A program made the position numbers and the translations under genes. A stretch of 35,480 nucleotides of DNA from Chloroflexota bacterium (GTDB taxonomy: Bacteria > Chloroflexota > Dehalococcoidia > Lucifugimonadales > UBA3495), in the NCBI GenBank assembly GCA_022562475.1, contig JADFPD010000011.1:1-35480 (forward strand), written 5' to 3'. The notes under the pieces are model-generated. The model saw only the letters and a list, made by a program, of their open reading frames with translations. It was not told the origin of the DNA and did not search any database. Position 1 is the first letter of the stretch; every line of letters starts with the position of its first letter. Positions 2,438-32,444 of the stretch are shown here, piece after piece.

Positions 2438-3418
2438 CTAAAATGGGGACGGGTCTTTGTAGAGATACGCCGAGTTGGCAAAGGCGGTTAGGGATTCCAA
2501 GGCCGTGTGCCAGAAGCGGTATCCGGTGGCCTTGTGGAGCTTGCCGGTGCTCATCACGATCGGCCAGCGGACCTGGTCAAGGCCGTTGCTGGACGCCTCC
2601 CGTTGTAAACGAAGCCCCCAGCACAACCGGACCAGGGGATAAGCCACGAACGGCGGCAGGTTGATCAACTTGCTCTTGATGATCTTGGCCATCTCACGGT
2701 AATGGACCACCCCGTCGCCGGCAACGTTGAATGTCCCAGGGATCTCTTGTTGAATCATGATGGCGATGACCCGGGCCAGGTCGTCGTCATAGACGAATTG
2801 CATGGGCGGGTCGTAGTCCAGCACGCCGAGAAGCCAGGGGCGAAAGAAGGACCGAGTTGCCCAGGTGTCGGCGCCGTGGCCCAACACCGTGCACGACCTT
2901 AGCACCGTAATCTTGACCTCTTCTTGGGCCTGGGCGAACTCCTCGAGGAGCAGCTCGCACTGGTGCTTGTCGTAGGCGTAGGGAAAATCGAGGGACGGCC
3001 GCATCGGCGCGTCGTCGGAGATGGGGACCGGGTTGTCGCTGTGCGCGCCATATACCGTGTGAGAACTGAGGTAGATCAGGTGAGTGACTCGTGCACTGGC
3101 GCACGAGGCCATCACTGACCGCAAGGTTTCCAAGTTCTCCTCATGTATGGCGGCCACCTCGCGGCGGTTGGCCCCACGGCGTGCGTTGAATGCCAGATGC
3201 ACCAATGTGGTGGCGCCCTGGTCGTTCAATTCGTCTTCGATGGGCTCCGAGACGTTTTTGCGGTAGAAGGCGATGTTATGGACGGGCAGGGGCAGCGGAT
3301 TAACGTCAAATGCCACCAATTTCCGTAGGCCGGATTCCTGTTCCAGCCGCGCCAGAAGCTTGGTGCCAACGTAACCGGAAGCTCCGGTGACCGCTACTAC
3401 CTTTCCCTGTTGGGCCAT
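2438..3418 (-). CDS. NAD-dependent epimerase/dehydratase (extended SDR)
   Basis: 326 aa; VTGASGYVGTKL Rossmann motif; YAYDKHQCE (YxxxK). Confidence 0.85.
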   Translation of the reverse strand: MAQQGKVVAVTGASGYVGTKLLARLEQESGLRKLVAFDVNPLPLPVHNIAFYRKNVSEPIEDELNDQGATTLVHLAFNARRGANRREVAAIHEENLETLRSVMASCASARVTHLIYLSSHTVYGAHSDNPVPISDDAPMRPSLDFPYAYDKHQCELLLEEFAQAQEEVKITVLRSCTVLGHGADTWATRSFFRPWLLGVLDYDPPMQFVYDDDLARVIAIMIQQEIPGTFNVAGDGVVHYREMAKIIKSKLINLPPFVAYPLVRLCWGLRLQREASSNGLDQVRWPIVMSTGKLHKATGYRFWHTALESLTAFANSAYLYKDPSPF

Positions 3419-3494
3419 CCTATCCTGCCGTCTAATCAGGTGAACAATCGATCGAAAGAAAATTGTTGTTTAGACAAAAGGTCTCAGGTAGAGG

Positions 3495-4403
3495 TTACCG
3501 GAGGGGGGAAGGGAGGGGCAACATACTGCCCAGCCAGGTCTTAGCCGTTATGCCGATCTTTTCGGCCTTGCTCAGGGACACCCTGGACTCCAAGACATCG
3601 TAGTCCGACGCCTCGATCCGGTCTAATACCTTGGAGTAGAGCGCTCCTAATACGGCGGGGCAGGCGCGGGACCGCCGCGAGAGATAGGGCAACAGCTTGA
3701 AGCCGCGGTCGAAATATTCTCGGGCCCTTTGCGATTGGAACCTCATGAGGTCCTGAAACGCCTCGTTTCGGACCCCCATTCTCAGGTCCTCTTCCGAATA
3801 CCCGAATCGGGCCATCTCGTCCTGAGGTAGATACACCCGTCCCATATCGAAGTCTTCCCGTACGTCCCGGATGATGTTGGTCAACTGCATGGCCAATCCC
3901 AGGTCAACGGCGTATTCTTTGGCATCGTCGTCCTCGTAGCCGAAGATCTGAAGACAGATCAAGCCCACCACCGAGGCCACCCGGTAGCAGTAAATTTTAA
4001 GTTCCTCGAAGTTCTGGAACCGGTCCTTGACCAGGTCGCTTTCCACGCCCAGGATGACCTCTTTGAAGTAGTCCTTGGGGATATCGTAGTTGCGTGCGAC
4101 ATCCGCCAACGCCACATAGACCGGGCCGGTGGCGCCCCCTGAATAGGAGCTATCGAGGTCAGTCTGAAGCTCGGCCAAAGCCTTTAATTTGGCGTCGTGA
4201 GAGGTTTCCTCATCAACCGAATCATCGCAGTGGCGGCAGAAGGCATAGGCTGCGTAGATGGCCCGGCGCTTGGCGGCGGGGAGGGTCAAAAAAGCATAGT
4301 AAAAGTTCTTGGCTTCCCGGCGGGTGATGGTCCGGCAGGCCTCGTACGCCGATTCCAAGTCCAATGCCAAATTCGGCTCAGGTTCAGTGGTGGGAGGCTG
4401 CAT
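3495..4403 (-). CDS. Squalene/phytoene synthase family protein (HpnD-like)
   Basis: 302 aa; AYAFCRHCDDSVDE and LTNIIRDVREDFDMGRVYLPQDEM aspartate-rich motifs; located in hopanoid cluster. Confidence 0.85.
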   Translation of the reverse strand: MQPPTTEPEPNLALDLESAYEACRTITRREAKNFYYAFLTLPAAKRRAIYAAYAFCRHCDDSVDEETSHDAKLKALAELQTDLDSSYSGGATGPVYVALADVARNYDIPKDYFKEVILGVESDLVKDRFQNFEELKIYCYRVASVVGLICLQIFGYEDDDAKEYAVDLGLAMQLTNIIRDVREDFDMGRVYLPQDEMARFGYSEEDLRMGVRNEAFQDLMRFQSQRAREYFDRGFKLLPYLSRRSRACPAVLGALYSKVLDRIEASDYDVLESRVSLSKAEKIGITAKTWLGSMLPLPSPLR

Positions 4404-4463
4404 AGGACCTACTGGAGGATACCGGGTGACGGGGAATGGCCGATATGTTTGGCCCGTTGAATA

Positions 4464-4493
4464 ATTATATTACAGAAAAGAGCTGGTCTTGAA
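4464..4493 (-). promoter_or_regulatory. Candidate promoter for the squalene synthase-like gene (perfect TATAAT -10, weak -35)
   Basis: Minus strand reads TTCAAG - 18 nt - TATAAT (-10 at 4469-4464) about 60 nt upstream of the ATG at 4403. Confidence 0.4.
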
Positions 4494-4513
4494 TGCACCG
4501 GCAGATGGGACCT

Positions 4514-4547
4514 GGCCCAGACCGGGGGGTACGCTTTGGTCTGGGCC
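4514..4547 (-). terminator. Candidate transcription terminator/attenuator hairpin downstream of yjbQ
   Basis: Perfect 10-bp inverted repeat GGCCCAGACC (4514-4523) / GGTCTGGGCC (4538-4547), 14-nt loop; no clear U-tract. Confidence 0.4.
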
Positions 4548-4573
4548 GGAGTGACCTACCGTGATAGGCGAGG

Positions 4574-5017
4574 TTATTCGCCGACTACCTGGACCATGAC
4601 TTCACGATTGCGAGCATGGTCCAACTCGATGAAGAAGACGCTCTGGTAGGTCCCAAATTGCATCTCGCCGTTGATCACCGGCACGGTCTCGCTCGTGCCC
4701 AGTAGCAGGTGCTGTAGATGGGCGTGGCCGTTGGGCGATTCGTCGTCGTTCATATTTACGGTGCGAATCTCAAAGTTGTTGTGTTGGTAGCCGTTCTCCC
4801 GGGGAGACATCCTTTCTAGAAATTCCTTCATGTCTTCCAGCAACAACGGCTCATTCTCGTTGATCTTGACCGCCGCGGTAGTGTGCTTGGAATACACGAC
4901 GGCGAACCCGTTGGTGATCTGCGATTCAGCGACACACTGGGCCACCCAATCTGTGATGTCGATGAACTCCGGCGCACACTTGGTCTTTAACCGCTTGCAA
5001 AAGGACCTGGTTTTCAT
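4574..5017 (-). CDS. yjbQ: YjbQ/UPF0047 family protein
   Basis: 147 aa; SKHTTAAVKINENEPLLLEDM and NGHAHLQHLLLGTSETVPVINGEMQFGTYQSVFFIELDHARNREV are family signatures. Confidence 0.92.
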   Translation of the reverse strand: MKTRSFCKRLKTKCAPEFIDITDWVAQCVAESQITNGFAVVYSKHTTAAVKINENEPLLLEDMKEFLERMSPRENGYQHNNFEIRTVNMNDDESPNGHAHLQHLLLGTSETVPVINGEMQFGTYQSVFFIELDHARNREVMVQVVGE

Positions 5018-5096
5018 CTTGGAGACCCCCTAATTTGTTAGCCCCATGCTACTTTTTGCTTTCGTCCTTGCCGCCTGAGATATTGTCCCTTACTTG

Positions 5097-7097
5097 CTAC
5101 CGGCCGGAAATGGCCTGGAAATATCTTCCCAGAGCCAGCAACGGCCAGTAGTTGCGGTACAGGTGGTAATTGATCATAAATCCGGCCGGCATATCCAAGC
5201 CTTGGTAATTGGTTTCTCCATGATCCGGCAACGCCTTCAGGCGCTCGCCTACCCCGTAGCCGGGAAATCCGGTGCCGGTGAAGTACGGCTCATCCCACGC
5301 GCCGTCTTCCTGTTGAGTTTCGGCCAGGTATGCCAAGCCCCGCTGGGTGGCCTCGCATCCATGCTCCCCGGCCGCCACCAGTCCAAGCAAGGCCCAGGCG
5401 GTCTGAGACGCGGTGCTGGGCCCAACGCCGCGGAGGGTTGGGTCCACGTATGAACCGCAGCTCTCGCCCCACCCACCGTCTTTGTTCTGGTGGGCAACCA
5501 GCCAATCAACCGCCCGGCGGACGTACGGCTGAGACATGTCTTCGCCGATGGCTTCCATCGCCGGCAGGACCGCTCCGGCGCCGTAGACGTAATTCACGCC
5601 CCAACGCCCGAACCAGGAACCGTCTTCTTCCTGCTCGCTGACGATGTAGCCGTATCCACGATTGACTGCCGGGTGTTCCTTGGTGTAACCCAAGCGTCCG
5701 TACATCTCCAGCAGATGGGCCGTCACATCGACGCTGGGCGGGTCCAGGGTCTCGCCAAAATCCGAGAACGGTATCTTGGTCAGGTATTTCTTGTTGTTGT
5801 CCTTGTCAAAGGCGGCCCAGCCGCCGTTCTTGGACTGCATACCGGCCATCCACTCCACACCCCTATGGATAGAATCGGCCCGGCGTGGTTCCTCGGCATC
5901 CGGCAGCCGGACTTGGTCGAGGGCCATCACGACGATGGACGCGTCATCGATGTCCGGGTAGATCAGGTTATCGAACTCGAATGACCATCCGCCGGGTCGG
6001 AGGTCTTTGGCCCGGACCTGCCAGTCGCCGCCGGCGAATATCTGCTTGTCCATCAGCCACCGGGCGGACGACTGGACCATGGGGTCGTCAGGGGCCACGC
6101 CCGATTCCAGCAGGGCTAATTGGGCGATGCCGGTGTCCCATACAGGGGAGATACAAGCCTGAAGGCTGCACTTGTCATCGTCTTCCAAGGCGAACCCTTC
6201 GAAGCCCTGGAATCCCCTTTTAACCGCCTCATGCTCCGGCCCATAGCCCATGATATGGAGGGCGATCAGAGAGTATACCCAGGGGGGCTGGATCCCGGCC
6301 CAGGAGCCATCGGCTTCCTGGTGCTCCAAGACCCATTGAATGGTCTTGCGCTCGGCACGGCCTCTGAGAGGGTGCACCGGCAACTTTTGGTAGAGTCCGA
6401 CCAGTTTGTCGGTCCAGTAGAGGGCCTTGGCCCAGCCGAATCCTCCCTTGGGTTTGGGCAAGGTGTAGTCGGTGCCTTCCCGTCCGCCGGGATAGAGTTC
6501 GTCGATGCTGGCCGACTCGGGCACCGGACAGTATGGCTGGTGGGTCAGGATGATCAGCATGGGGACCACGGTGGCGCGGGCCCAACTGGCGAATTCATAG
6601 ATGTTAAAGGGCGCCCAAGACGGTAGAAAAATCATCTCGGGGGGCATATTAGGCGTGCCTTTCCAGTCCCATTGGCCGAACAGCGCCAACCAGATCTTGG
6701 TGAACACCCGGACCTTGGGCATCCCGCCCTTGGACAAGATGAACTCACGGGCCCTTTGTAGAGGCTCTTCGTCCGGCGAATGACCCGCCAGTTTGAGGGC
6801 GAAGTAACACTCGACCGATGTGCTGACGTCGCCGGGAGCATCGTAGTACTGGGCCCATGAACCGTCGGTCCGCTGTTTGCTCAAGATGTAATTGCAGACC
6901 TTGCTCCATCGATCTTGGTCATGGCGGCCGGTGAAATGGCACAGCATCAGATACTCGGCTTCCATCGTGGGGTTGGATTCCAGTTCACCCCACCAGTAAC
7001 CTTCGGGATACTGGGTCCGGCGGAAATAGTCTTGGGACCGCCGCACCGCCTGCCCTGCCGCCTGATCGACCGGTGTATGTTTCTGTTGCGCCACCAT
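5097..7097 (-). CDS. shc: Squalene-hopene cyclase
   Basis: Start reassigned from 7163 to ATG at 7097 (2 nt after the hpnA stop); DXDD protonation motif (PDIDDASIV), multiple QW repeats (QxxDGSW, QNKDGGWG, QEDGAW). Confidence 0.96.
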   Translation of the reverse strand: MVAQQKHTPVDQAAGQAVRRSQDYFRRTQYPEGYWWGELESNPTMEAEYLMLCHFTGRHDQDRWSKVCNYILSKQRTDGSWAQYYDAPGDVSTSVECYFALKLAGHSPDEEPLQRAREFILSKGGMPKVRVFTKIWLALFGQWDWKGTPNMPPEMIFLPSWAPFNIYEFASWARATVVPMLIILTHQPYCPVPESASIDELYPGGREGTDYTLPKPKGGFGWAKALYWTDKLVGLYQKLPVHPLRGRAERKTIQWVLEHQEADGSWAGIQPPWVYSLIALHIMGYGPEHEAVKRGFQGFEGFALEDDDKCSLQACISPVWDTGIAQLALLESGVAPDDPMVQSSARWLMDKQIFAGGDWQVRAKDLRPGGWSFEFDNLIYPDIDDASIVVMALDQVRLPDAEEPRRADSIHRGVEWMAGMQSKNGGWAAFDKDNNKKYLTKIPFSDFGETLDPPSVDVTAHLLEMYGRLGYTKEHPAVNRGYGYIVSEQEEDGSWFGRWGVNYVYGAGAVLPAMEAIGEDMSQPYVRRAVDWLVAHQNKDGGWGESCGSYVDPTLRGVGPSTASQTAWALLGLVAAGEHGCEATQRGLAYLAETQQEDGAWDEPYFTGTGFPGYGVGERLKALPDHGETNYQGLDMPAGFMINYHLYRNYWPLLALGRYFQAISGR

Positions 7098-7099
7098 CT

Positions 7100-8119
7100 C
7101 TAATTTGCTTTGCTCCGGATGATCTGGCGGTCTCCAGCCACATATCCGTGGGCGGCGAACCAATCGGCCGCCTTTTTCAATGCGGCTTCGATGGGCCGCT
7201 GGGGTTGCCCCAACTCTCTGACCGCCTTTTCGCAGTTGACGTAGGCCGGTGTCTTGGACGCCAACACCCCTTCGACTGGAATGGCCGGTTCCCGGCGAAG
7301 GAGAGTTCCCTCGACGAACCGGTCGGCATAGCCAACGCCCACCACCAGCCAGTAGGGCGCCCTTATACGGGGCGCCGGCAGGCCGGTCAGGTTGCTCAAT
7401 ATGTCGAATATTTCCTTCAAACTCACGTTCCGGTTGCCCAAGATATACCGTTCTCCGGACTTGCCCTTCTCCAAGGCCAAGATGTGGCCTTCAACCACAT
7501 CGGCCACGTCCACTAGATTCATTCCCGTCTTCAAATAGGCCGGCACCCGCCGGCGTAGAAAGTCCAATACCATCTTCCCCGTTGGCGTGGGTTTAACGTC
7601 CCACGGCCCTACCGGAGCGGTGGGATTCACCACCACCAGGGGCATACCCGCCGCGGCCAGCGCCAGTGCCTCCTGCTCCGCCTGGTATTTGGACCTCTTG
7701 TAATGGCCGTGGAGCGATTTGGGGTTGAGGTAGGTGTCCTCATCTCCGAGCCCCTGTTTGGGGAGCCCGACGGTCCCGACCGTGCTGGTGTAGACCGTAC
7801 GGGAGACCCCCGCCTGCCGCGCGGCTTCTAACACGTTCAATGTGCCCGCCACGTTGGTCCGCGTAACCGCTGTGGGGTCCCTGGACCAGAAAGTGTAGGC
7901 GGCGGCCACGTGGAATACTGCCTCACAGCCCTGGACGGCCCGGTCCACCGACTGCCGGTCCAGGATGTCGCCTTCCATGGGGACGATTCCGGTGTCTTCT
8001 ATTGTTAATCGGTTGCTTCCCGGGCGCACCAGCGCCCGGACATCGTCACCTCGCCGCCACAGCTCGCGGGCCAGGTTTCCGCCGATGAACCCGGTGGCGC
8101 CGGTGACAAGTACCTTCAT
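7100..8119 (-). CDS. hpnA: Hopanoid-associated sugar epimerase (HpnA-like SDR)
   Basis: 339 aa; MKVLVTGATGFIGGNLAREL; HVAAAYTFWSRDP; NPTAPVGPWDVKPTPTG typical of HpnA; adjacent to shc. Confidence 0.85.
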   Translation of the reverse strand: MKVLVTGATGFIGGNLARELWRRGDDVRALVRPGSNRLTIEDTGIVPMEGDILDRQSVDRAVQGCEAVFHVAAAYTFWSRDPTAVTRTNVAGTLNVLEAARQAGVSRTVYTSTVGTVGLPKQGLGDEDTYLNPKSLHGHYKRSKYQAEQEALALAAAGMPLVVVNPTAPVGPWDVKPTPTGKMVLDFLRRRVPAYLKTGMNLVDVADVVEGHILALEKGKSGERYILGNRNVSLKEIFDILSNLTGLPAPRIRAPYWLVVGVGYADRFVEGTLLRREPAIPVEGVLASKTPAYVNCEKAVRELGQPQRPIEAALKKAADWFAAHGYVAGDRQIIRSKAN

Positions 8120-8127
8120 TTTTTAAC

Positions 8128-8856
8128 CTAGCCGGCGCCGATAATTCCAGTCGCCTTCAGGTATGAAACCCCAAAGTTTGTCAGGACCGCCTGGCACAGT
8201 TGCAACTGGCTCTTCAGGCGCAGCACGGTGGGGATCCGCCAGGGCATGAGCAGAACATTGGTCAACACTTTGTATCGCGATTTGGCCAGCCCCGGCAGAT
8301 AGCCGGGGAGGCGTTGGCTTGCCGTGTCCAAAACCACCCGGACCGACAAGAAAGGGACGCCCGCATTCTGGGCCGCCTCTGCCGCCCGGTAGTCTTCCAT
8401 GTTGACGCTAGACGTCTGATACCGGGCCCGAAGCTCCTCACGTTCTTGGGGCCCCGCAACCAGATGGTCAACGGTCAACGACCCGCCATTAAAGATGGGG
8501 ACTGAAAGATCGAGGGCCGCCTGTTGCGCGGATTGAAGCATCACGGCGTCGGGCTTGATCGCCTGTCCCGCGCCTTTGACTGCTCCGTCTTGTAGGGCGT
8601 AACGGTCCGCCAGCAGCAGGTCTCCGGTCTCCAGTTCGGGGTCCACGCCTCCGGCGACTCCAATGACCAACACCCCATCCACATTGGAACGCCGGTTTTC
8701 CAGCAATGCCGCCATCGAAGCGCCCGCCCGTTCGGGCCCAACACCCAATACCTGAAACTCCACCTGGGGGTGGACCCCGGTGGCGTCTTCGATGTCGAGC
8801 AATTCACGGCGAAGGCCGTTTAATTCTTGCTCCATGCTGGCAGCCACGATCAACAA
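8128..8856 (-). CDS. hpnG: Nucleoside phosphorylase-like protein, HpnG-like (adenosylhopane phosphorylase)
   Basis: 242 aa; VIGVAGGVDPELETGDLLLADR; SSVNMEDYRAAEAAQ; adjacent to hpnH. Confidence 0.85.
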   Translation of the reverse strand: MLIVAASMEQELNGLRRELLDIEDATGVHPQVEFQVLGVGPERAGASMAALLENRRSNVDGVLVIGVAGGVDPELETGDLLLADRYALQDGAVKGAGQAIKPDAVMLQSAQQAALDLSVPIFNGGSLTVDHLVAGPQEREELRARYQTSSVNMEDYRAAEAAQNAGVPFLSVRVVLDTASQRLPGYLPGLAKSRYKVLTNVLLMPWRIPTVLRLKSQLQLCQAVLTNFGVSYLKATGIIGAG

Positions 8857-8874
8857 ATTTCCTTACTCTTGGAC

Positions 8875-9939
8875 CTAGGCAGCCGTTATTCCGCCCTTGT
8901 GGGCGGCGCCGGATTTGATCAGCGTGATCCAGTCCTTGGGCGTTGTCACAGCCGCGAAGATGGTGGCGGACTCGAAGCCGCAGTGCATCATGCAGTTGGC
9001 GCAACGCGGGTCTTTGCCCACGCCATATCTCTCCCAGATATCCTCGTCAAATAGCTCCGTGACGTGTTCGACATGCTCATCGGCCAGAGGGTAGCAGGGC
9101 TTCCTCCATCCCATCACGGTGTAGGTCGGGTTGGACCAAGCCGTGCACTGGTACTCCCGGTCCCCCTTCAGGAAATTCAAATAGAGGGGGTTGTTGTAAA
9201 AACGGGCGCCCTCGGAGTTTTCCGGCGACAGTAGGTCTTTGAATATCTCGTGGGACTCCTCGCGTGTCAAGAACATGTCTTGGTCGGGGGCGTCTTTAAA
9301 ATCGAAGCCTGGAGAGATCATGGAACCCTCGATTCCCATATCCGCCACCATGCGGAACATCTCGGAAAGGTCACCGACATCGCTGGTTCGGAAGACCGTG
9401 GAGTTGGTGCAGACGCGGTAGCCGCGGTCCAAGGCCGATTGGATGGCGTCGACAGCCTTCTTAAAGACTCCTTTCCGGTCCACCGACTCATCGTGCTTGT
9501 CTTCCATTCCGTCCAGATGCACCACCCAGCACAGGTACTTGGACGGGGGCACCTTGTTCATCACCCGGTCCAGCAACAGGCCGTTGGTGCAGCAATACAC
9601 GAAGTATTTTTCTTCGATCAACTGGTTGATGATCTGGTCGATCCGGGGGTGAATGGTAGGTTCTCCGCCGGCGATCGATACTATGGGCGCGCCCGACTCA
9701 CGAACGGCGGCCAGGGCTTCCTCCACCGGCATCATCTTGTCCAGAACCGGCTTGTATTCCCGAATACGTCCGCAACCGATGCAGGCTAAGTTGCACATCT
9801 CCAGAGGCTCAAGCATGGTCACCAACGGGAATTTCTTCCTTCCCTTGAGTTTATTCTTAAGGATGTAGCCCGCCAGTCTCGTGGATAGCTCCAGCGGCCG
9901 TTTGGCTCGTTTGGGTTGGCCTTTTTCTACCGTGGTCAT
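8875..9939 (-). CDS. hpnH: Radical SAM adenosylhopane synthase HpnH
   Basis: 354 aa; EMCNLACIGCGRI (CX3CX2C radical SAM motif); SIAGGEPTIHP; conserved C-terminal RCANCMMHCGFE. Confidence 0.93.
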   Translation of the reverse strand: MTTVEKGQPKRAKRPLELSTRLAGYILKNKLKGRKKFPLVTMLEPLEMCNLACIGCGRIREYKPVLDKMMPVEEALAAVRESGAPIVSIAGGEPTIHPRIDQIINQLIEEKYFVYCCTNGLLLDRVMNKVPPSKYLCWVVHLDGMEDKHDESVDRKGVFKKAVDAIQSALDRGYRVCTNSTVFRTSDVGDLSEMFRMVADMGIEGSMISPGFDFKDAPDQDMFLTREESHEIFKDLLSPENSEGARFYNNPLYLNFLKGDREYQCTAWSNPTYTVMGWRKPCYPLADEHVEHVTELFDEDIWERYGVGKDPRCANCMMHCGFESATIFAAVTTPKDWITLIKSGAAHKGGITAA

Positions 9940-9989
9940 ATCGTAAACACCTTAGCGGTTAGCGAATTCCGTATCGAGACGTATCTTGG

Positions 9990-11075
9990 TTAGTATTCTC
10001 TTCGGGCGAGAAAGTCAACCAGTTCTTCAGCCTCGGTTTGCGCCCATTGGGGCAGCGAAACCGGCTTCAAAGCCTCCAAAGCCCGGGCTGCCGCGGCTTC
10101 CGTAAGGCGTTGCGAATGCTCCTGGGACCCGACTTCGTCCAGCACGGCCAATACCCGCTGCACGTCGTCTTCTTTCAGCTCCTCCTGGCCATAGATGCGT
10201 AGCAGGTCTTCCATGGCCCTTCCGCTGGCCTGCTCCAGAGCGAACACCACCGGGTATGATTTCTTCCGCCGGCGTATATCGCTGTCGGTGGCCTTGCCCA
10301 AGGTGGCCTGGTCGCCCCAGATCCCCAGGTAATCATCCCTGATCTGGAATACCCGGCCAAGATGGTCGCCAAATTCGGCGAAAGCCCTCACCGCCGCCGC
10401 GTCTTCCGTGGCGAGGAGTGCCCCTATCTCAAGGGCGCAGCGTATCAAAGCGCCCGTTTTACAGGCGATCATATATAAGTATTCATCGGACTTGACGTCG
10501 GTCCGGGATTCGAATTCTAGGTCTAGGCATTGACCTTGAATCATTTCCAAGTAGCTCTCGGTCAAGATTTCGGAGACCTGGAGGACCATCGATGGGGTGG
10601 CGTCTTGGCCGGCGACCTCCAGCAGTGACAGGTCGCCGGTGCATTGCATCGCGTTGCCCGACCAAAGCGCCTTTGGGATCCCCCAAAGATGCCACACCGT
10701 TGGATGGTGCCTCCGCTCCACGTCCTGGTCTTGGATGTCGTCGTGGATCAGCGAGAAATTGTGGATCAATTCCACCGCCGCGGCCGCGGGCAGCGCCTTG
10801 GAGTAATCGTCGGCCAAGGCGTTGCAGGCGAAGAGACACAGCGTTGGGCGGAGCGCTTTGCCCTGGGTTATTGAGGTGTCCATCGGACCGCCAAGTTCAT
10901 CGACCCAGCCCAGGTGATAGCGGAGTAATCGGTGGGCCTCGAAGTTCTCGGCGCCGGGCACGGCGGCATAGAGCCCTTGCTCTACAGAGCTTTGGTATCT
11001 GGAGAACATGCCGGGAAGTTTTGTTCCCAGGTCCGAACTCCTATGTGATTGCTGTGCGCCGTCGTCTTTGACCAT
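9990..11075 (-). CDS. Polyprenyl (farnesyl/geranylgeranyl) diphosphate synthase
   Basis: 361 aa; LIHDDIQDQDVERR (first Asp-rich motif), FQIRDDYLGIWGD (second). Confidence 0.93.
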   Translation of the reverse strand: MVKDDGAQQSHRSSDLGTKLPGMFSRYQSSVEQGLYAAVPGAENFEAHRLLRYHLGWVDELGGPMDTSITQGKALRPTLCLFACNALADDYSKALPAAAAVELIHNFSLIHDDIQDQDVERRHHPTVWHLWGIPKALWSGNAMQCTGDLSLLEVAGQDATPSMVLQVSEILTESYLEMIQGQCLDLEFESRTDVKSDEYLYMIACKTGALIRCALEIGALLATEDAAAVRAFAEFGDHLGRVFQIRDDYLGIWGDQATLGKATDSDIRRRKKSYPVVFALEQASGRAMEDLLRIYGQEELKEDDVQRVLAVLDEVGSQEHSQRLTEAAAARALEALKPVSLPQWAQTEAEELVDFLARREY

Positions 11076-11458: not shown

Positions 11459-11568
11459 AACTAGAATGTGGGCCCTCAAAATCGCGGACAATTGGGGTTT
11501 TTGTCAGGCACCGTTTAGCTTCGGCAAAAACCGGCCGGATTTCATTTGACACTTCTCCCACATTAGTT
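11459..11568. repeat. Nested inverted-repeat element upstream of the DUF1800 operon
   Basis: AACTagAATGTGGG (11459-11472) / CCCACATTAGTT (11557-11568); nested AAATCgCGG (11479-11487) / CCGGATTT (11535-11542); GGTTTTTG (11496-11503) / CAAAAACC (11525-11532). Confidence 0.45.
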
Positions 11569-11574
11569 TATATT
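11546..11574 (+). promoter_or_regulatory. Sigma70-like promoter of the DUF1800-DUF1501-NHL operon
   Basis: TTGACA (11546-11551) - N17 - TATATT (11569-11574). Confidence 0.7.
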
Positions 11575-11663
11575 TCTTCCTTGTAATGAATGTTACATAA
11601 GGGGTGTATCGAGCCTGGGTTTAGCCCAAGCGCGTCGCGCCTTCTTGATGTGACCGAGAGATA

Positions 11664-11682
11664 CGGGCGGCGGCGCTGCCCG
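11664..11682 (+). promoter_or_regulatory. Strong hairpin in 5' UTR of the DUF1800 gene
   Basis: CGGGCGGC GGC GCTGCCCG: 8 pairs including one G-U, 3-nt loop, about 39 nt upstream of the ATG. Confidence 0.5.
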
Positions 11683-11720
11683 ATGACGAACCAAATAATA
11701 CATTCCCCAAGGAGAAGCAC

Positions 11721-13145
11721 ATGGCTGAACAGGATATTGCCTTGATGGCCCACCTCTTGCGTCGCGCCGGCTTCGGTGCGAGCCGCGATGAGATTGAGGC
11801 TAAGGCAACCCAAGGTTATGACAGTGTAGTCCAAGAGTTGCTCAATCCCGAGACCCAAGAGGCCGTCCCGGAAGACCTGCTGATTCGCTATAACCCTTCC
11901 TACTATGAAGCAGCTGCCATTGAAAACAACGTGCAGCAATGGGTCTGGCGCATGATCAACAGCCCCCGCCAGCTTCAAGAGAAGGTGACCCTCTTCTGGC
12001 ACATGATCTTCTGTGCTGGTCACAGCAAGATCGACAGCGGCCAAGAGATGGGTCTGATGGTCGATATCTTCCGCCAAAACGGAATGGGTAAATTCGACGA
12101 CCTGCTGCTCAAGCTCTCCACAAACCCCGGCATGATGTACTACCTGGACAACACCGAGAGCCACAAGGCCAACCTGAACGAGAACTATGGCCGTGAGCTG
12201 CTGGAACTCTTCTCCCTGGGCGTGGGGATGGACGAAGACTTCAACTACAGCGAAGACGACGTCAAAGCCTGCGCCAGGGCCTTCACCGGCTGGAACATCG
12301 CCCCGTCCTATCCTCCATTCCCCCACGGCCGCAGCCCCTGGGTGTTCCGGTTCGACCCCGCCGACCACGACTCCTCCGATAAGACCTTCTTGGGCGAGAC
12401 GGGCAACTGGAACGGCGAGGACATCATCAGAATCGCCTGCAAGCGGCCGGCCACTGCCCGGTTCCTTGCCCGCCATTTGTACAACTACTTCGTCGCTGAC
12501 GAGCCTCAGATCCCCGCCTGGCGGCTGACCCCGCCACGGGACCAAGCGGCCATCGAAGCCATGGAGAAGGCCTACTACGATTCCGACCACTCCATCAAGG
12601 CGATGTTGGAAGTCCTATTCACTTCCGACTTCTTCAAGGACGAAGCGGTCCGTTACCAAAAGGTCAAGAACCCCACTGAGATGGTTGTCAGTCTCCTCCG
12701 CATGACCGGTGAGTTCAAGGGCTACCAGCCCGGCCTGTTTGAGGCCTCCCAAGAGCCAAAGTACATGGGCATGGACCTCATGAACCCGCCCACCGTTGAA
12801 GGCTGGCACACCGGCCGCGAGTGGATCGACAGCGGAACACTGGTCGAGCGCATCAACTTCGCCTCCGATTTGTTGGGCAACACCGAGTTGGCGGGAGTCC
12901 GCTCTCTGGTGGACCGCCTGATGGGCCTGGGCGCCAAGCTCACCCCGGAACAGTTCGTCAACGGCTGTCTGGACCTGACCGGCCCGGTTGTCGTAACTTC
13001 GGACACTATGGGTCAGTTGGTGGGACACGCTTCCCAGGAAGGCGACCTCAGCCACGGTAGCGACGCCGAGGAATCCGAGTTCACCCGGCGCACCGGCGAG
13101 ATGTTCCAGATGATTGCCGCCACCGCTGAATTCCAATTCGAGTAA
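11721..13145 (+). CDS. DUF1800 family protein
   Basis: 474 aa; HLLRRAGFGASRDEIE N-terminus; ATG preceded by AAGGAG; NENYGRELLELFSLGVG...YSEDDVKACARAFTGW; F(L)ARHLYNYFV; characteristic of DUF1800. Confidence 0.92.
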   Translation: MAEQDIALMAHLLRRAGFGASRDEIEAKATQGYDSVVQELLNPETQEAVPEDLLIRYNPSYYEAAAIENNVQQWVWRMINSPRQLQEKVTLFWHMIFCAGHSKIDSGQEMGLMVDIFRQNGMGKFDDLLLKLSTNPGMMYYLDNTESHKANLNENYGRELLELFSLGVGMDEDFNYSEDDVKACARAFTGWNIAPSYPPFPHGRSPWVFRFDPADHDSSDKTFLGETGNWNGEDIIRIACKRPATARFLARHLYNYFVADEPQIPAWRLTPPRDQAAIEAMEKAYYDSDHSIKAMLEVLFTSDFFKDEAVRYQKVKNPTEMVVSLLRMTGEFKGYQPGLFEASQEPKYMGMDLMNPPTVEGWHTGREWIDSGTLVERINFASDLLGNTELAGVRSLVDRLMGLGAKLTPEQFVNGCLDLTGPVVVTSDTMGQLVGHASQEGDLSHGSDAEESEFTRRTGEMFQMIAATAEFQFE

Positions 13146-13197
13146 GCCACCGCAAGTAAGCTAACTCTCGAGACACCAAATCACGTAAGGAGAAATC

Positions 13198-14337
13198 ATG
13201 GTTCAAACCAAGAAAGATCCCGTCCTGGCAGTACTTTCTCTGTCCGGCGGAAACGATGGCCTAAACTGCGTCATCCCCCGCAACAACGGATATTACCGGG
13301 ACTCCCGCCCCACCTTGGCGGTGCCCGAAGACCAGATCATTCCCATCACCGACGAGTTGGGCTTCCACCCCACGATGGGCCCATTGAAGAAGTACTGGGA
13401 CGAAGGTAAATTGGCCATCTTCGTGGGTATCGGATACCCCACCCCCAGCTACTCTCACTTCCGCTCGATGGACATCTGGCACACCTGTGAGCCGGACATC
13501 ATCGGGATCGAAGGCTGGCTGGGCCGGGCCACGAAACAGTTGGACCCCAACTCTGAGAACGTTCTGACCTGCGTCAACTTCGGTCGTGGTCTTCCCCGGG
13601 CTTTGGTCATGGACGGCGTTCCCGTCGCCTCCGTGGGCAACCTGGAGACCTACGGTCTGCTTACCGGCATCGAGGGCGAGAGGCAGCGGAACGACGCGCT
13701 TGACGTGTTTGGCCGCATGTACTCCCCCGCCATCGGCACCGGCGCGGTGATGGACTACATCCATCAGACCGGCACCGACGCCTTGAAGGGCGCCGACATC
13801 CTCTCGACGGCTCCGGACAAGTACACCTCCAACGTGGAGTACTCGACCACCGCCATCGGCCAGTACATGAAGAACATCGCACAGACCCACCTTGCTGGAT
13901 TCGGCACGCGGGTCCTGTACACCACTTCCCCGTACAACGGCTTTGACTCCCACGCCAACCAGGCCCAAGCCAACGCAGCGCTGTTGACGGACGTTTCCAA
14001 CACCGTGGATACGTTCATGACCGATCTCCGGGACCACGACGCCAGCGACAACGTCACTCTGCTGTTGTTCAGCGAGTTCGGCCGCCGTGTGGTCGACAAC
14101 GGCTCCGGCACCGACCACGGCGCCGCCGGAGTTGCCTTTGCGGTCGGCGAGCACGTCAAGGGCGGCATCTACGGCGAGTATCCGTCCCTGGAGCCTTCCA
14201 AACAGGAAGAGGGTGGCAACCTGAAGTTCAACCTGGACTTCCGGTCTGTCTACTCCACCATCTTGGAAGACTGGTTCCAGTTGGATCCCGAGCCGATCGT
14301 TGGCGGCAACTTCGAGCGGGTCAAGTTCCTCGCCTAG
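13198..14337 (+). CDS. DUF1501 family protein
   Basis: 379 aa; LSLSGGNDGLNCVIP; RPTLAVPEDQIIPI; SEFGRRVVDNGSGTDHGAAGVAFAVGEHVKGGIYG; partner of DUF1800. Confidence 0.92.
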   Translation: MVQTKKDPVLAVLSLSGGNDGLNCVIPRNNGYYRDSRPTLAVPEDQIIPITDELGFHPTMGPLKKYWDEGKLAIFVGIGYPTPSYSHFRSMDIWHTCEPDIIGIEGWLGRATKQLDPNSENVLTCVNFGRGLPRALVMDGVPVASVGNLETYGLLTGIEGERQRNDALDVFGRMYSPAIGTGAVMDYIHQTGTDALKGADILSTAPDKYTSNVEYSTTAIGQYMKNIAQTHLAGFGTRVLYTTSPYNGFDSHANQAQANAALLTDVSNTVDTFMTDLRDHDASDNVTLLLFSEFGRRVVDNGSGTDHGAAGVAFAVGEHVKGGIYGEYPSLEPSKQEEGGNLKFNLDFRSVYSTILEDWFQLDPEPIVGGNFERVKFLA

Positions 14338-14450
14338 TCGGCAGCAGGTCGATTCCAGCTATCTAACGCAACGAAATGCTGGGCCGCTTCCTTGGCAGAT
14401 CGCCACGCAACAGGCGGCCCGGCGCACTAAGTACGAAGAGGTAATGAGAT

Positions 14451-15455
14451 ATGGCAACACATTTCTTCGGCCTAACCAGCCGAACATACAAATACAGCCA
14501 TGCCGTTGGCCGGGCAGAATTTGCCGGGACCGGTTTCCGAAACCCCACGGACATGGCCATCGCAGCCGACGGAACGGTCTACATCTGCAACCGGTCTTAT
14601 GAGAACCGGCCGGATGGCGTACACATCACCGTGGTTACTATGGACGAAGAGTACATCACCGAATTTGGCTCCTACGGCGAGGCGGATGGTGAGTTCATGT
14701 GGCCGACCTCGGTGGCCCTGGACAGCAAAGGCAATCTCTTTCTGGCCGACGAGTGGCTGAACCGCATCACTAAATTCACCAAGGACGGTGAATTCGTTAG
14801 CAAGTGGGGCGTCGCTGGTTCCGGCGATGGAGAGCTCAAGGGACCCTCTGGTTTGGCCATCGACGCCGACGACAACATATTCGTCGTCGATGCCGGCAAC
14901 AACCGGGTCCAAAAGTTTAGTCTCGACGGCAAGTACATCAGCCAATTCGGCTCAGAGGGCAGCGCCGACGGCCAGTTCAACAATCCCTGGGGCATCGCAT
15001 TGGACGGCGAAGGCCACATCTACATCGCCGACTGGCGCAACGACCGGATCCAGAAGTTCACCGCCGACGGCAAGTGGGAAGCCTCCATCGGCTCCACCGG
15101 CAGCGGCATCGGCCAACTGAACCGGCCCAACGGCTTGGCCATAGACGCAGATGGCGATATCTACGTTGCCGACTGGATGAATAACCGGGTCCAGGTATTC
15201 GCTCCCGACGGCCGTTACATAACCGAGTTCCACGGGAACGCCGAGCTCTCCAAGTGGGGCCGGGACAAGCTGGCAGCGAACCCGGACATGATTCGGCAGC
15301 GGTCGCTTGCTTACGCCAACAACCCTGGCTACGGGCAAGGCTTGGCCCATCCTTGCGCCGTCAAGATCGACCCTCAGGGCCGGATCGTGATCATTGACCA
15401 CACACGGAACCGCCTCCAGGTTTATATCAAGGAAGCCGAGCCGGCGCTGGTCTAA
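14451..15455 (+). CDS. NHL-repeat beta-propeller protein
   Basis: 334 aa with repeated blocks of the type GPSGLAIDADDNIFVVDAGNNRVQKFSLDGKYISQFGSEG. Confidence 0.93.
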   Translation: MATHFFGLTSRTYKYSHAVGRAEFAGTGFRNPTDMAIAADGTVYICNRSYENRPDGVHITVVTMDEEYITEFGSYGEADGEFMWPTSVALDSKGNLFLADEWLNRITKFTKDGEFVSKWGVAGSGDGELKGPSGLAIDADDNIFVVDAGNNRVQKFSLDGKYISQFGSEGSADGQFNNPWGIALDGEGHIYIADWRNDRIQKFTADGKWEASIGSTGSGIGQLNRPNGLAIDADGDIYVADWMNNRVQVFAPDGRYITEFHGNAELSKWGRDKLAANPDMIRQRSLAYANNPGYGQGLAHPCAVKIDPQGRIVIIDHTRNRLQVYIKEAEPALV

Positions 15456-15485
15456 GACCGCACCAAGCAGCAACAAGCAAGGCAT

Positions 15486-15525
15486 AAAGAATGGGCCGGG
15501 GCGAAGCCCCGGCCCATTCTTTTTT
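15486..15525. terminator. Rho-independent terminator (probably bidirectional)
   Basis: AAAGAATGGGCCGGGGC GAA GCCCCGGCCCATTCTTT, 17-bp perfect stem with triloop, followed by T-tract. Confidence 0.95.
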
Positions 15526-16579: not shown

Positions 16580-16608
16580 TTGACAAGAAAAAGGGGGCAA
16601 ACTATAGT
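16580..16608 (+). promoter_or_regulatory. Sigma70-like promoter upstream of the HIT gene
   Basis: TTGACA (16580-16585) - N17 - TATAGT (16603-16608). Confidence 0.65.
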
Positions 16609-26997: not shown

Positions 26998-28470
26998 ATG
27001 ACCGCACCCAAGGTCATCTCACGGAACTCCACTTCCAGTGAACTGGAATCTGACTACAAGTGGGGTTTCACAATCGATATCGATGCCGATTTGGCCCCCA
27101 AGGGTTTGAATGAGGACATCGTCCGGTTGATCTCCGCCAAGAAAGAAGAGCCGGAATGGCTGTTGGAATGGCGTCTCAAGGCGTTCAGCCATTGGCTGAA
27201 ACTGAAGCAGGAAGCGCCCACCTGGGCCAACGTGAAATATCCGCCCATCGACTACCAGGACATCTACTACTACGCGGCGCCCAAGACCGACGCGCCCAAG
27301 AGCTTGGATGAGGTCGACCCAGAGATATTGGCGGCCTTCGAAAAACTGGGGATCCCGCTCCAAGAAAGGGAGCGGCTGGCCGGTGTCGCGGTGGCCGGTG
27401 TCGCGGTGGACGCGGTATTGGACAGCGTGTCGGTTGCCACGACCTATAAAGAGACGCTGGAGAAGCAGGGCGTCATCTTCTGCCCGATCAGCGAAGCCGT
27501 CAGAGAGCATCCGGAGCTGGTCCGGAAATACCTCGGTTCCGTAGTGCCCTATGGCGACAACTTCTACGCTACCTTGAACTCGGCCGTCTTCAGCGACGGT
27601 TCGTTCGTCTACATCCCCAAAGGGGTACGCTGCCCCATGGAGTTGATGACCTACTTCCGTATCAACCAGGCCGACTCCGGACAGTTTGAGCGGACGCTGA
27701 TAATCGCCGAAGAGGGCTCATACGTCAGCTACCTGGAAGGCTGTACCGCTCCCGCCAGAAAGACCCACCAACTCCACGCCGCAGTGGTCGAACTGGTGGC
27801 CCTGGACGACTCTGAGATCAAGTACTCCACCCTTCAGAACTGGTTCCCTGGCGACAAGGACGGCAATGGCGGTGTCTACAATTTTGTGACCAAACGCGGC
27901 ATCGCCCACAAGAACGCCAAGATCTCTTGGACGCAGGTGGAGACCGGCTCGGCAATCACTTGGAAGTACCCCAGCGTGATCTTGGAAGGCGACAATTCCG
28001 TTGGCGAGTTCTACTCGGTGGCCCTGGTCAACAACTACCAGCAGGCCGATACCGGCACCAAGATGATTCACAAGGGCAAGAACACCCGCAGCACCATAGT
28101 GGCCAAGGGCATCTCCGCCGGGCACGGCAGCTCAACCTACCGCGGTCTGGTCAAGATTCTGCCCTCCGCCGATGGAGCGAAGAACTTCACCCAATGCGAC
28201 TCCCTTTTGGTCGGAGACCAGTGCGGGGCTCACACGGTGCCCTACATCGAGGTCAAGAACCCCACGGCCCAGATTGAGCACGAAGCGTCGACCTCTAAGG
28301 TCAGCGACGACCAACTTTTCTACTGCCAACAAAGGGGAATATCCGTCGAGGACGCCCACTTCATGATCATCAACGGCTTCTGCCGGGGCATCTTCCAGGA
28401 ACTCCCCTTCGAATTTGCCATGGAAGCCTCCCAACTCCTCAAGGTGAGCCTGGAAGGAGCAGTGGGCTAG
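26998..28470 (+). CDS. sufB: Fe-S cluster assembly protein SufB
   Basis: 490 aa; [55 protein letters not shown]. Confidence 0.97.
27379..27408 (+). repeat. Exact 15-bp in-frame tandem duplication within sufB
   Basis: GCCGGTGTCGCGGTG x2 encoding [10 protein letters not shown]. Confidence 0.97.
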
Positions 28471-29259
28471 ATGGCTGCCGTTGCGAAAGGCCCCACACCC
28501 TTGCTGGCCATCAAGGGCCTCACCGCCTCGGCCGGCGACCTGGAGATCCTCAAGGGTATCGACCTTGAGGTCTTTGCCGGTGAGGTGCATGCCATCATGG
28601 GCCCCAACGGTTCGGGAAAGAGCACCCTGACCAATGTGCTGGCCGGCAGCCCCAACTACAAGGTCACCGGCGGCCAGGTATTGTTTGAAGGCCAAGACCT
28701 CCTGAAACTCGAACCGGAGATCAGGGCCCGCATGGGCCTGTTCCTGGCTTTCCAATACCCCCTTGAGCTCCCCGGCGTGCGGGCCTGGCAATTCCTAAAG
28801 GCCGGAGTGGACGCCCGCCGGCTACACAACGGCGAAGAGGAGATGGGCGCCCGCGAGTTCGACCAGATGTTGAAGGCAAAAGTCGAGCAGGTCCAGATCG
28901 ACCCGGATCTGGTTAAGAGGGCGGTCAACGAAGGGTTCTCCGGTGGCGAAAAGAAACGGAACGAAATCCTGCAAATGGCCGTGCTGGAGCCAAAATTAGC
29001 CCTTCTGGATGAGACCGACTCCGGTCTGGACATCGATGCCCTGCGTATCGTTGCCGACGGGATAAACAACCTGCGCTCTCCACAGAACGCCATTGTCCTG
29101 GTGACTCATTACCAGCGCATCCTCGAGTACATCACGCCCAACCACGTACACGTACTGTTCGACGGACGGATCGTTCGGTCCGGCGGGCCTGAACTGGCCC
29201 ACGAATTGGAAGCAAAGGGTTACGACTGGATCAAAGACGCCGTTAATGCGGGCGTGTAG
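28471..29259 (+). CDS. sufC: Fe-S cluster assembly ATPase SufC
   Basis: 262 aa; Walker A GPNGSGKST; FSGGEKKRNEILQMAVLEPKLALLDETDSGLDIDAL. Confidence 0.97.
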   Translation: MAAVAKGPTPLLAIKGLTASAGDLEILKGIDLEVFAGEVHAIMGPNGSGKSTLTNVLAGSPNYKVTGGQVLFEGQDLLKLEPEIRARMGLFLAFQYPLELPGVRAWQFLKAGVDARRLHNGEEEMGAREFDQMLKAKVEQVQIDPDLVKRAVNEGFSGGEKKRNEILQMAVLEPKLALLDETDSGLDIDALRIVADGINNLRSPQNAIVLVTHYQRILEYITPNHVHVLFDGRIVRSGGPELAHELEAKGYDWIKDAVNAGV

Positions 29260-29283
29260 CGCACACTGCTCCAACGAGACCTC

Positions 29284-30639
29284 ATGACCTCCGCACCCGC
29301 CAAATACGCCCATTATTTTGCCGATTTCCAGTCCTTGGTACAGGGACCGGGGGCCGGGGCGCCTCCCTGGCTGCGGGACCTCCGGGACAACGCTTGGTCC
29401 ATGTTCAGCGAGACCGGTTTCCCAACGGCGCGCCGGGGCAACGAACGCTGGAAGTACACCAACGTGGGCCCCATCGCCAAGATCGACTTCAATTTTTCCA
29501 CCCGGCCCACCGACGCCAACGGATCAAGATCGTTGGCGGCCAGCTACAAGATCGAAGGACCAGCGGTCTCCGACCTGGTCTTTATCGATGGCCGCTACTC
29601 CCCGGAATTATCTTCGCCGGCGGCCGCCACCGATGGAATCACCGCCGCCAGCTTGGCTTCCATCTTTACGGATAGTGCGTTTGACCTAGAGAGCCAGGTA
29701 GGGCGCTACGCTTCCCCGGATGGCGATGGGTTCGCCGCGCTTAACACCGCTTTCCTTCACGATGGGGCTTACATCCACGTTGGCGACGGCCATTCGGGGA
29801 AGGTGCTGGTACGCCTTTCATATATCACGGTTGATGGCACGCACCCCAAAGTAACCCACCCTAGGACTCTGATAGTTGCCGGCCGGAACACCGACGTTAC
29901 GGTGGTGGAGAGTTATTACGGCCCCAAGGATAGCGTCTATTTCACCAACGCCGTCACCGAGATCTCCGTCGGCGACGGGGCCCGAGTCGATCACTACCGG
30001 CTGCTCTTGGAGGGCGAAAAGGCGTTCCACGTCGGCACGAACCGCGTCAAACAAGAAAAGGACAGCAGTTTTAGCTCCGCGTCCTTCACCCTGGGCACGG
30101 CCCTCGCCCGCAACGACCTGGAAGTGCTCTTTGACGGGACCGGCGGCTACTGCTCGTTGAACGGCCTATATCTCACCGCCGACAACCAACACATCGACAA
30201 CCTTATCAGCATCGACCACGCTCAGCCTAATTGCACCAGCCGTTTGAACTACAAAGGAATACTGGACGGAAGGTCCCGTGCCGTGTTTGGCGGCACGGTG
30301 GTGGTGCGTCCCGGCGCCCAGAAGAGCGATGCGGAGCAGACCGACAAGAATCTGATCCTCTCAAAGTTTGCCGAGGTGGACAGTAAACCTAGCCTGTTGA
30401 TCTACGCCGACGACGTGAAATGCAGCCACGGCGCCACCGCCGGGCACATCGACGCCGACACCCTGTTCTACCTTCGCAGCCGAGGCCTCGACCTGGACAC
30501 TGCCAGCAGGATGCTGGTTCACGCCTTCGCCAGTGAGATTATAGAAAAAGTACAGCCCGAACCTCTACGTGATTACCTAAACACCATTTTCGCCGCCGCG
30601 ATACCCGACAAAAGCCTTCCGATCGCGTGGACCGGATGA
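29284..30639 (+). CDS. sufD: Fe-S cluster assembly protein SufD
   Basis: 451 aa; KCSHGATAGHIDADTLFYLRSRGLD. Confidence 0.94.
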   Translation: MTSAPAKYAHYFADFQSLVQGPGAGAPPWLRDLRDNAWSMFSETGFPTARRGNERWKYTNVGPIAKIDFNFSTRPTDANGSRSLAASYKIEGPAVSDLVFIDGRYSPELSSPAAATDGITAASLASIFTDSAFDLESQVGRYASPDGDGFAALNTAFLHDGAYIHVGDGHSGKVLVRLSYITVDGTHPKVTHPRTLIVAGRNTDVTVVESYYGPKDSVYFTNAVTEISVGDGARVDHYRLLLEGEKAFHVGTNRVKQEKDSSFSSASFTLGTALARNDLEVLFDGTGGYCSLNGLYLTADNQHIDNLISIDHAQPNCTSRLNYKGILDGRSRAVFGGTVVVRPGAQKSDAEQTDKNLILSKFAEVDSKPSLLIYADDVKCSHGATAGHIDADTLFYLRSRGLDLDTASRMLVHAFASEIIEKVQPEPLRDYLNTIFAAAIPDKSLPIAWTG

Positions 30640-31862
30640 CCACCGTGTTTGACGTTAACAAAGTCCGGGACGATTTTCCGATATTGAAGCAGTGGGTGAA
30701 CGGTTACCCGCTGGTCTACCTGGACAACGGCGCCACGTCCCAGAAACCCCAGTCGGTGATCGATGCCATCGTCAATTACTACACCACTACCAACTCGAAT
30801 GTGCACCGGGGCGTCCATACCTTGAGCCAACAGGCGACTGACAGTTACGAGGGCGCGCGGGCCAAGGTCCGGCAGTTCATCAACGCCGGCGACGACCGGG
30901 AGATCATCTTCACCAGAAACACCACCGAGGGCATCAACCTGGTGGCCCATTCCTATGGCCGCCAAAACGTGGGTCCCGGCGACGACATCATCGTCTCCAA
31001 CATGGAGCATCACTCCAACATCGTGCCCTGGCAGATGTTGTGCGAGGAGAAGGGCGCCAACCTGCGCGTTGTGCCCATCGACGACACCGGCGAACTGCTG
31101 ATGGACGAGTACGAAAAGATGCTTGGTCCCCGCACCAAACTGGTCTCCATCACCCATGTATCAAACGCGTTGGGCACCATTCTGCCGGTGGCCGAGATCG
31201 TTGAGATGGCCCACGCCCACGGAGCCCCGGTCTTGTTTGACGGCGCCCAAGCCGTCCCCCACATGCCTGTTGATATGAAAGAATTGGACTGCGAGTTTTA
31301 CGTGTTTTCCGGACACAAATTGTTCGGGCCCACCGGCATCGGCGTCCTCTACGGGAAAGCGGAGTACCTGGAGGCCATGCCGCCTTTCCTCGGTGGCGGC
31401 GAGATGATCAAGTCGGTCACCTTTGAAAAAACGATCTACAACGACCTGCCCTATAAATTCGAGGGCGGCACCCCCGACATCGCCGGGGCAATCGGCTTGG
31501 GCGCGGCCATCGACTACGTGAATGACCTGGGCTTCGATTGGATCACCTCCCACGAGGAAGAACTGCTCCGGTACGGCACCGAGGCCCTGTCGTCCATCGA
31601 GGGGCTGAAGATAATCGGCACGGCTGCCCACAAATCGAGCATCATTTCCTTCGTGATGGACAAAGCTCACCCCCACGACATCGGCACCATCTTGGACGAA
31701 CAAGGCATCGCGGTACGCACGGGACACCACTGCGCCCAACCGGTGATGCAGCGGTTCCGGATTCCCGCCACCGCCCGGGCCTCCATGGCCTTCTATAACA
31801 CCAAAGAAGATATCGACGCGCTAGTCAAAGGCATCGACCAGGTCCTTGAGGTCTTCAGTTAA
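30636..31862 (+). CDS. sufS: Cysteine desulfurase SufS
   Basis: ATG 30636 overlaps the sufD stop (ATGA); YLDNGATSQKP; SGHKLFGPTGIGVLYGK; VRTGHHCAQPVMQRF. Confidence 0.96.
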   Translation: MTTVFDVNKVRDDFPILKQWVNGYPLVYLDNGATSQKPQSVIDAIVNYYTTTNSNVHRGVHTLSQQATDSYEGARAKVRQFINAGDDREIIFTRNTTEGINLVAHSYGRQNVGPGDDIIVSNMEHHSNIVPWQMLCEEKGANLRVVPIDDTGELLMDEYEKMLGPRTKLVSITHVSNALGTILPVAEIVEMAHAHGAPVLFDGAQAVPHMPVDMKELDCEFYVFSGHKLFGPTGIGVLYGKAEYLEAMPPFLGGGEMIKSVTFEKTIYNDLPYKFEGGTPDIAGAIGLGAAIDYVNDLGFDWITSHEEELLRYGTEALSSIEGLKIIGTAAHKSSIISFVMDKAHPHDIGTILDEQGIAVRTGHHCAQPVMQRFRIPATARASMAFYNTKEDIDALVKGIDQVLEVFS

Positions 31863-32308: not shown

Positions 32309-32444
32309 TGCGCCGGCTCAGCCGGGTTTACTTGGGTGCCTTCTACTCTGTGATTGGTCGCCTTTTTCTGTTCAATGGATGAAGCTGCGCCAGTCGCCCT
32401 GTGCTAAGCTGGATACGATTCCGATATTTGACCGACTGATCTCA

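Follow-up and report, generated by a model that had tools for sequence, protein, structure and literature searches.

A leaderless DUF1800-DUF1501-NHL gene cassette of SAR202 bacteria and their relatives, and its predicted hydrolase

The stretch of DNA analysed here (the window: 35,480 nt of Chloroflexota bacterium GCA_022562475.1, contig JADFPD010000011.1, positions 1-35,480, forward strand) comes from a SAR202-type Chloroflexota genome and carries three co-directional genes, for a DUF1800 protein, a DUF1501 protein and an NHL-repeat beta-propeller, placed as an earlier note made from the sequence had claimed. All three pass Pfam: PF08811 at 344 bits against a gathering score of 26.1 (positions 1-418 of 419); PF07394 at 72.4 bits against 27, aligning only positions 232-347 of 390; and the NHL repeat at 143.7 bits in three stretches. 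Each listed start is the first ATG, GTG or TTG past the preceding in-frame stop, and therefore no leader from a hidden upstream ATG, GTG or TTG exists in the window copy; the open DUF1501 frame offers just three further codons, and the absence of export signals that the note had reported holds against alternative starts in all three frames. Its description of the genes as rich in C-ending codons also stands: in a comparison among window genes only, the C-ending fraction (C3) of the three, 0.54-0.57, is the window maximum (one other gene ties at 0.54 and the rest are at or below 0.51), and their effective number of codons (Nc) is fairly low, 37-41. The operon may be highly expressed, as this codon bias and the good promoter would suggest.

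The near-consensus promoter described in the note, TTGACA-N17-TATATT, was found upstream of the first gene (Table 1). Matches of this class occur at chance level in the region (3 in the 8 kb scanned against 2.9 expected), so that a consensus match is weak evidence alone; the window promoter is supported because a close relative, SAR202 bacterium OSU_TB47 (L039), whose DUF1501 is 94% identical to that of the window, keeps the sequence from the -35 box to about +25 nearly unchanged while the flank upstream has diverged. The terminator with its perfect stem also lies directly after the third gene as noted, and in L039 three of its stem pairs are altered on both sides with pairing retained. The palindrome TGTAATGAATGTTACA, the sole match in the window where 0.02 are expected and present in L039 with one central change, is a probable operator with CRP/FNR-like spacing; the upstream sequences of other related triads (clusters of the three genes) lack it, which places it outside the general cassette. 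An Rfam search around the operon returned no RNA element. Across 65 triads, with a promoter called at 10 or more of 12 matches no further than 220 bases upstream of a gene, promoters precede the first gene in 30 of 62 cases and the second and third genes in 0 of 130; a slightly wider spacer range gives 31 of 62, of which 26 have a 17-base spacer, against a mean of 2.1 in shuffled upstream sequences. Terminator-like hairpins follow the third gene in 19 of 61 triads, the first in 0 of 65 and the second in 2 of 65. Because promoters precede only the first gene and terminators mostly trail the third, there is strong comparative evidence that the triad is transcribed as one unit, as the note had proposed, in preference to separate transcripts.

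Table 1. Features of the DUF1800-DUF1501-NHL operon, in window coordinates.
Feature	Position	Strand	Evidence
Sigma-70-type promoter, TTGACA-N17-TATATT	11546..11574	+	11/12 match; nearly invariant in L039
Palindrome, probable operator	11582..11597	+	just 3' of the -10 box
Ribosome-binding site of DUF1800, AGGAG	11710..11714	+	sequence; kept in L039
DUF1800 protein, 474 aa, leaderless, all-alpha fold	11721..13145	+	Pfam PF08811, E 1.9e-102
Ribosome-binding site of DUF1501, AAGGAG	13187..13192	+	sequence; kept in L039
DUF1501 protein, 379 aa, leaderless, predicted alkaline-phosphatase-superfamily hydrolase	13198..14337	+	Pfam PF07394, E 5.3e-20
Probable ribosome-binding site of NHL gene, GAAGAGG	14435..14441	+	sequence; kept in L039
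NHL-repeat beta-propeller, 334 aa, leaderless	14451..15455	+	Pfam NHL, E 4.3e-43
Intrinsic terminator, 17-bp stem then T-rich tail	15486..15522	+	perfect stem, z -7.2

Relatives were drawn as the nearest 80 loci from a collection with one genome per species; nearly all belong to SAR202 or other Dehalococcoidia, with a few from Caldilineaceae and others. The NHL gene, which the note had expected to recur beside DUF1501, adjoins it in 81 of 89 leaderless clusters; among the eight exceptions, several are truncated by the edge of a contig. The gene order of the complete triads is DUF1800-DUF1501-NHL (46), DUF1800-NHL-DUF1501 (12) or DUF1501-DUF1800-NHL (7). The window's own genome contains seven DUF1800 and five DUF1501 genes, and five of its loci are triads, the window's among them: C35, C153 and C32 share the gene order of the window, and C84 reads DUF1501-DUF1800-NHL. 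Besides these, C50 (L017:8003-10722) has DUF1800 and NHL without DUF1501, and C131 is cut at a contig end. These copies all lack leaders and are 44-66% identical to those of the window, and are thus old duplicates. Five complete Dehalococcoidia chromosomes carry DUF1501, DUF1800 and matching NHL genes in numbers of 10/11/11, 9/9/9, 4/4/4, 3/4/4 and 9/13/12; of these, 32 of 35 DUF1501, 33 of 41 DUF1800 and 32 of 40 NHL genes stand in triads, 32 triads in all. The cassette reaches up to about a dozen copies per genome in SAR202 and its relatives.

NHL-like propellers are common (47 repeat matches in the window genome), and genomes rich in all three families might bring such genes together by chance. 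This explanation is practically negligible in probability, since the NHL genes of triads stand apart by score (at least 365 bits, against at most 134 for other propellers) and nearly all adjoin DUF1800 or DUF1501, and since the three genes co-diverge: across 54 non-redundant triads their pairwise distances correlate at r 0.73-0.78, where the permutation maximum is 0.25. Species history contributes to this correlation, but many of the loci are paralogues within the same genomes; the cassette therefore seems to have been inherited and duplicated as a unit. The first flanking genes are scattered over 105 Pfam families, so that no fixed fourth member exists. One orthologous triad (L014, L048, L049, L051) apparently keeps its neighbours: putative thiamine pyrophosphate (TPP)-enzyme genes lie upstream, and three of the loci (L014, L049, L051) have a downstream gene of 750 bases that probably accounts for the VitK2_biosynth matches among the flanking families. 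A complete 4.3-Mb chromosome labelled Candidatus Entotheonella (L072, OY282375.1) has five leaderless-type DUF1501 genes and one more distant; either the cassette has been transferred to a second phylum or the chromosome is mislabelled. An Acetobacteraceae metagenome-assembled genome (L105) has one complete triad, on a 31-kb contig, through transfer or contamination.

The note had stated that many DUF1501 proteins carry a twin-arginine translocation (Tat) or signal leader. Among 34 outgroup loci, including Armatimonadota, HR15 and Paenibacillus, a twin-arginine motif stands upstream of the DUF1501 domain in 33 and an NHL gene is present in none; flanks of about 5 kb on each side were used where the contig allowed, because 1.5-kb flanks could not exclude a downstream NHL gene. 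These loci carry the DUF1800-DUF1501 pair without NHL, which occurs in the same taxonomic order as the window genome and elsewhere in Chloroflexota. Every NHL-partnered DUF1501 examined, by comparison, is free of a Tat leader, and the window protein, which lacks the twin-arginine leader of the exported pair, is homologous to Tat-type DUF1501 over its full length (36-41% identity). When 100 DUF1501 proteins are placed on a tree, those without a leader make up one side of a single fully supported branch; the leader state changes once and the gene order five times. The exact root is less certain than this split because long branches lead to the outgroup, and rare exceptions may lie outside the sample because it was picked by similarity to the leaderless form. 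By this sequence comparison, the loss of the leader and the gain of NHL fall on the same branch and have a single origin: in one event in SAR202 and its relatives, export signals were lost, a fixed beta-propeller partner was gained and copies were multiplied. Loose RR patterns upstream of the true start (for example in L042 and L050) were rejected as leaders, as they lack a hydrophobic stretch. One triad DUF1501 (L106:5959-7125) reads MLNSNPNRRDFLIEQKERSLVVIQLS, a possible relic of a Tat motif that lacks its hydrophobic stretch, or a coincidence. Two metagenome-assembled genomes of the same order (L019, L020) encode a full-length, planctomycete-like DUF1501 unlike the rest, which may be contamination.

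Tat can carry leaderless partners in a complex, and close outgroup DUF1501 proteins have Tat leaders; the triad proteins might therefore still be exported, either non-classically or together with a partner that bears a leader, and have a surface role like that of Tat-type DUF1501. We regard this as quite improbable, because no triad member has a leader, no fixed fourth gene stands alongside, and NHL-partnered DUF1501 is leaderless throughout its 89-sequence clade. The earlier note's proposal of a cytosolic version with a dedicated beta-propeller partner thus withstood the search for upstream starts, the survey of NHL adjacency and the comparison with separate transcripts, so far as sequence can speak to it; a true cytosolic location and the formation of a complex are predictions.

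The AlphaFold2 (AF2) model of the DUF1501 protein (predicted local distance difference test, pLDDT, 91) has the fold of the alkaline phosphatase superfamily, Foldseek matching it to sulfatases, MCR-1 and other enzymes of that superfamily with probability near 1.0 and E down to 1.7e-6. Residues D20, S86, D250, H252, E293, D306 and H307 show no variation across 66 proteins, Tat forms among them, and by their position would lie near the ends of central strands or at a helix start, the placement expected of a candidate metal site with a serine nucleophile. The formylglycine motif of type I sulfatases (CxPxR or SxPxR) is absent from the window DUF1501, whose invariant serine lies within YSHFRSM; because CxPxR is missing, a formylglycine sulfatase is unlikely.

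The AF2 model of the DUF1800 protein (pLDDT 94) is mostly helical, and a Foldseek search of the PDB gave no match (best E 0.97). Its invariant polar set, H11, R15, D143, N153, E154, N155, R158, E159, E162, E178, D180, H216 and R377, could form a binding or active site. Direct PDB sequence searches found no match for DUF1800 or DUF1501; the profile-search hits for these two (stathmin, designed helical proteins) were chance-like, and a DUF1800 hit to phycobilisome linkers, weak at E 0.012, was taken as chance. The best solved relatives of the NHL protein in the profile search are the NHL propellers TRIM71, Thin and the Pizza designs. An NCBIfam match to ScyF was rejected at 179.6, far below the cut-off of 350. 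Related six-bladed families include SMP-30/gluconolactonase, with an SGL match at E 5.9e-18, and the use of sugar lactones and acids is known from SAR202 isolates (PMC10444878), so that the propeller might itself be an enzyme such as a lactonase or lyase and the triad a two- or three-step pathway, not a complex. This is unlikely, as the SGL match falls within the repeats and the invariant NHL columns hold chiefly structural glycine and proline and residues of the blade motif, with no evident metal triad.

The diverse flanking genes indicate no single pathway, as would suit a housekeeping, storage or defence complex that is not a nutrient enzyme and in which DUF1501 is a binding protein. We give this reading the same low credence as an enzymatic propeller: the candidate catalytic residues of DUF1501 are invariant even in the Tat forms; PADLOC matched no defence family to DUF1800 or DUF1501, and assigned the NHL protein only a weak local match to PD-T4-6 (77 residues, at the level of the repeat) that falls short of an anti-phage system; and copy numbers of up to a dozen, with copies that have diverged, are better explained by diversification of substrates.

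On the computed evidence (one unit, no leader, a fixed triad, a single origin, co-divergence, the superfamily fold and a conserved candidate site), we slightly favour the view that the three genes form one unit encoding a soluble, cytosolic three-protein hydrolase module that was duplicated as a unit. From this evidence we infer a cytosolic complex, hydrolysis, a substrate class and a role for the NHL protein, as follows. Catalysis would probably fall to DUF1501, as a metallohydrolase of the alkaline phosphatase superfamily that uses a serine nucleophile and whose substrate is an imported organic compound in the form of a phosphonate or an ester of phosphate or another oxyanion; DUF1800 would be the protein with which it has long been paired, whose all-alpha fold the PDB still lacks; and the NHL propeller, having presumably joined when the DUF1800-DUF1501 pair lost its Tat leaders and went intracellular, would most likely scaffold the pair or select its substrate. 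Within the SAR202/Dehalococcoidia lineage the module would then have been duplicated whole, giving copies that probably differ in substrate, like other paralogue expansions of that lineage. Three observations weigh against this proposal: the Foldseek template modelling (TM) scores of DUF1501 to alkaline-phosphatase-superfamily structures are modest (0.31-0.46); a recognisable promoter precedes only about half of the triads; and DUF1800 and NHL occur without DUF1501 at C50 and, across the five chromosomes, at six further loci, so that DUF1501 is not strictly required and NHL is tied somewhat more strictly to DUF1800 than to DUF1501. Only tentatively, and with less than even confidence, do we extend the proposal to a joint claim: that this is a new type of cytosolic three-subunit hydrolase (unsolved DUF1800 fold, alkaline-phosphatase-like catalyst, propeller), that it arose once by internalisation of a Tat-exported pair, and that the intact cassette multiplied in SAR202 to process a variety of phosphorylated or comparable compounds from dissolved organic matter.

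Elsewhere in the window, a probable hopanoid cluster (2438-11075, minus strand) diverges from the triad and encodes a squalene/phytoene synthase, a squalene-hopene cyclase, an epimerase, a phosphorylase-family protein, a radical S-adenosylmethionine (SAM) protein with DUF3463 and a polyprenyl synthetase, the last standing beside the triad, among relatives, seemingly only in L039. A second promoter-like site, TTGACA-17-TATAGT (16580-16608, 11/12), lies upstream of an enoyl-CoA hydratase gene. A suf iron-sulfur operon (26998-32903) comprises two SufBD genes, an ATP-binding cassette (ABC) ATPase and a class-V aminotransferase, and ends in two consecutive NifU_N genes (31862-32308 and 32379-32903).

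SAR202 bacteria account for a large share of the plankton of the deep ocean, and expanded enzyme families are believed to let them oxidise persistent dissolved organic matter. The cassette is a SAR202 expansion of uncharacterised function and suggests an undescribed, probably intracellular enzyme set in abundant carbon-recycling bacteria. The triad is a real, lineage-wide three-gene unit, solid in its gene organisation and evolution and putative in its biochemistry. It brings together three families so far listed singly as 'uncharacterised' in one testable unit of co-expressible proteins with a predicted catalytic site, offers a clean evolutionary contrast between an exported pair and an internal triad, and includes in DUF1800 an unsolved fold found across many bacteria. 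With SAR202 isolates now at hand (PMC10444878), expression and localisation have become checkable.

Parts of this system have appeared before. We take COG4102 and COG5267 to be DUF1501 and DUF1800, and COG3391 to be a propeller family. In the passages found in Saw et al. 2020 (PMC6946804), COG3391, COG4102 and COG5267 are grouped as uncharacterised among correlated SAR202 expansions, and to that extent the co-expansion of the three families is already known; those passages mention neither operon, gene order, leader loss and single origin nor structure and mechanism. In the literature outside subscription journals, where few papers name DUF1800 or DUF1501, nothing was found that describes the operon as a physical cassette, the absence of leaders or the origin in a single event. 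The DUF1501-DUF1800 pair has been described beside bacterial chitin synthases, its DUF1501 bearing a twin-arginine motif (PMC5122149). The window genes resemble that pair in belonging to the same two families, in being adjacent and co-directional and in being biochemically uncharacterised; unlike it, they are leaderless, have a fixed NHL partner and occur in many copies, whereas the chitin-synthase-linked pair has the Tat motif and no NHL gene was described with it. DUF1501 is like the alkaline phosphatase superfamily (sulfatases, phosphoethanolamine transferases) in its high-probability fold match and in its invariant polar residues, which by position would lie near strand ends, and differs in its identity of 8-13% and in lacking the sulfatase motif. 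The NHL protein matches the profiles of solved propellers strongly (PF01436; TRIM71, Brat, Thin and the PknD sensor), but unlike them it stands alone, with no RING or kinase domain, and is leaderless and operon-bound.

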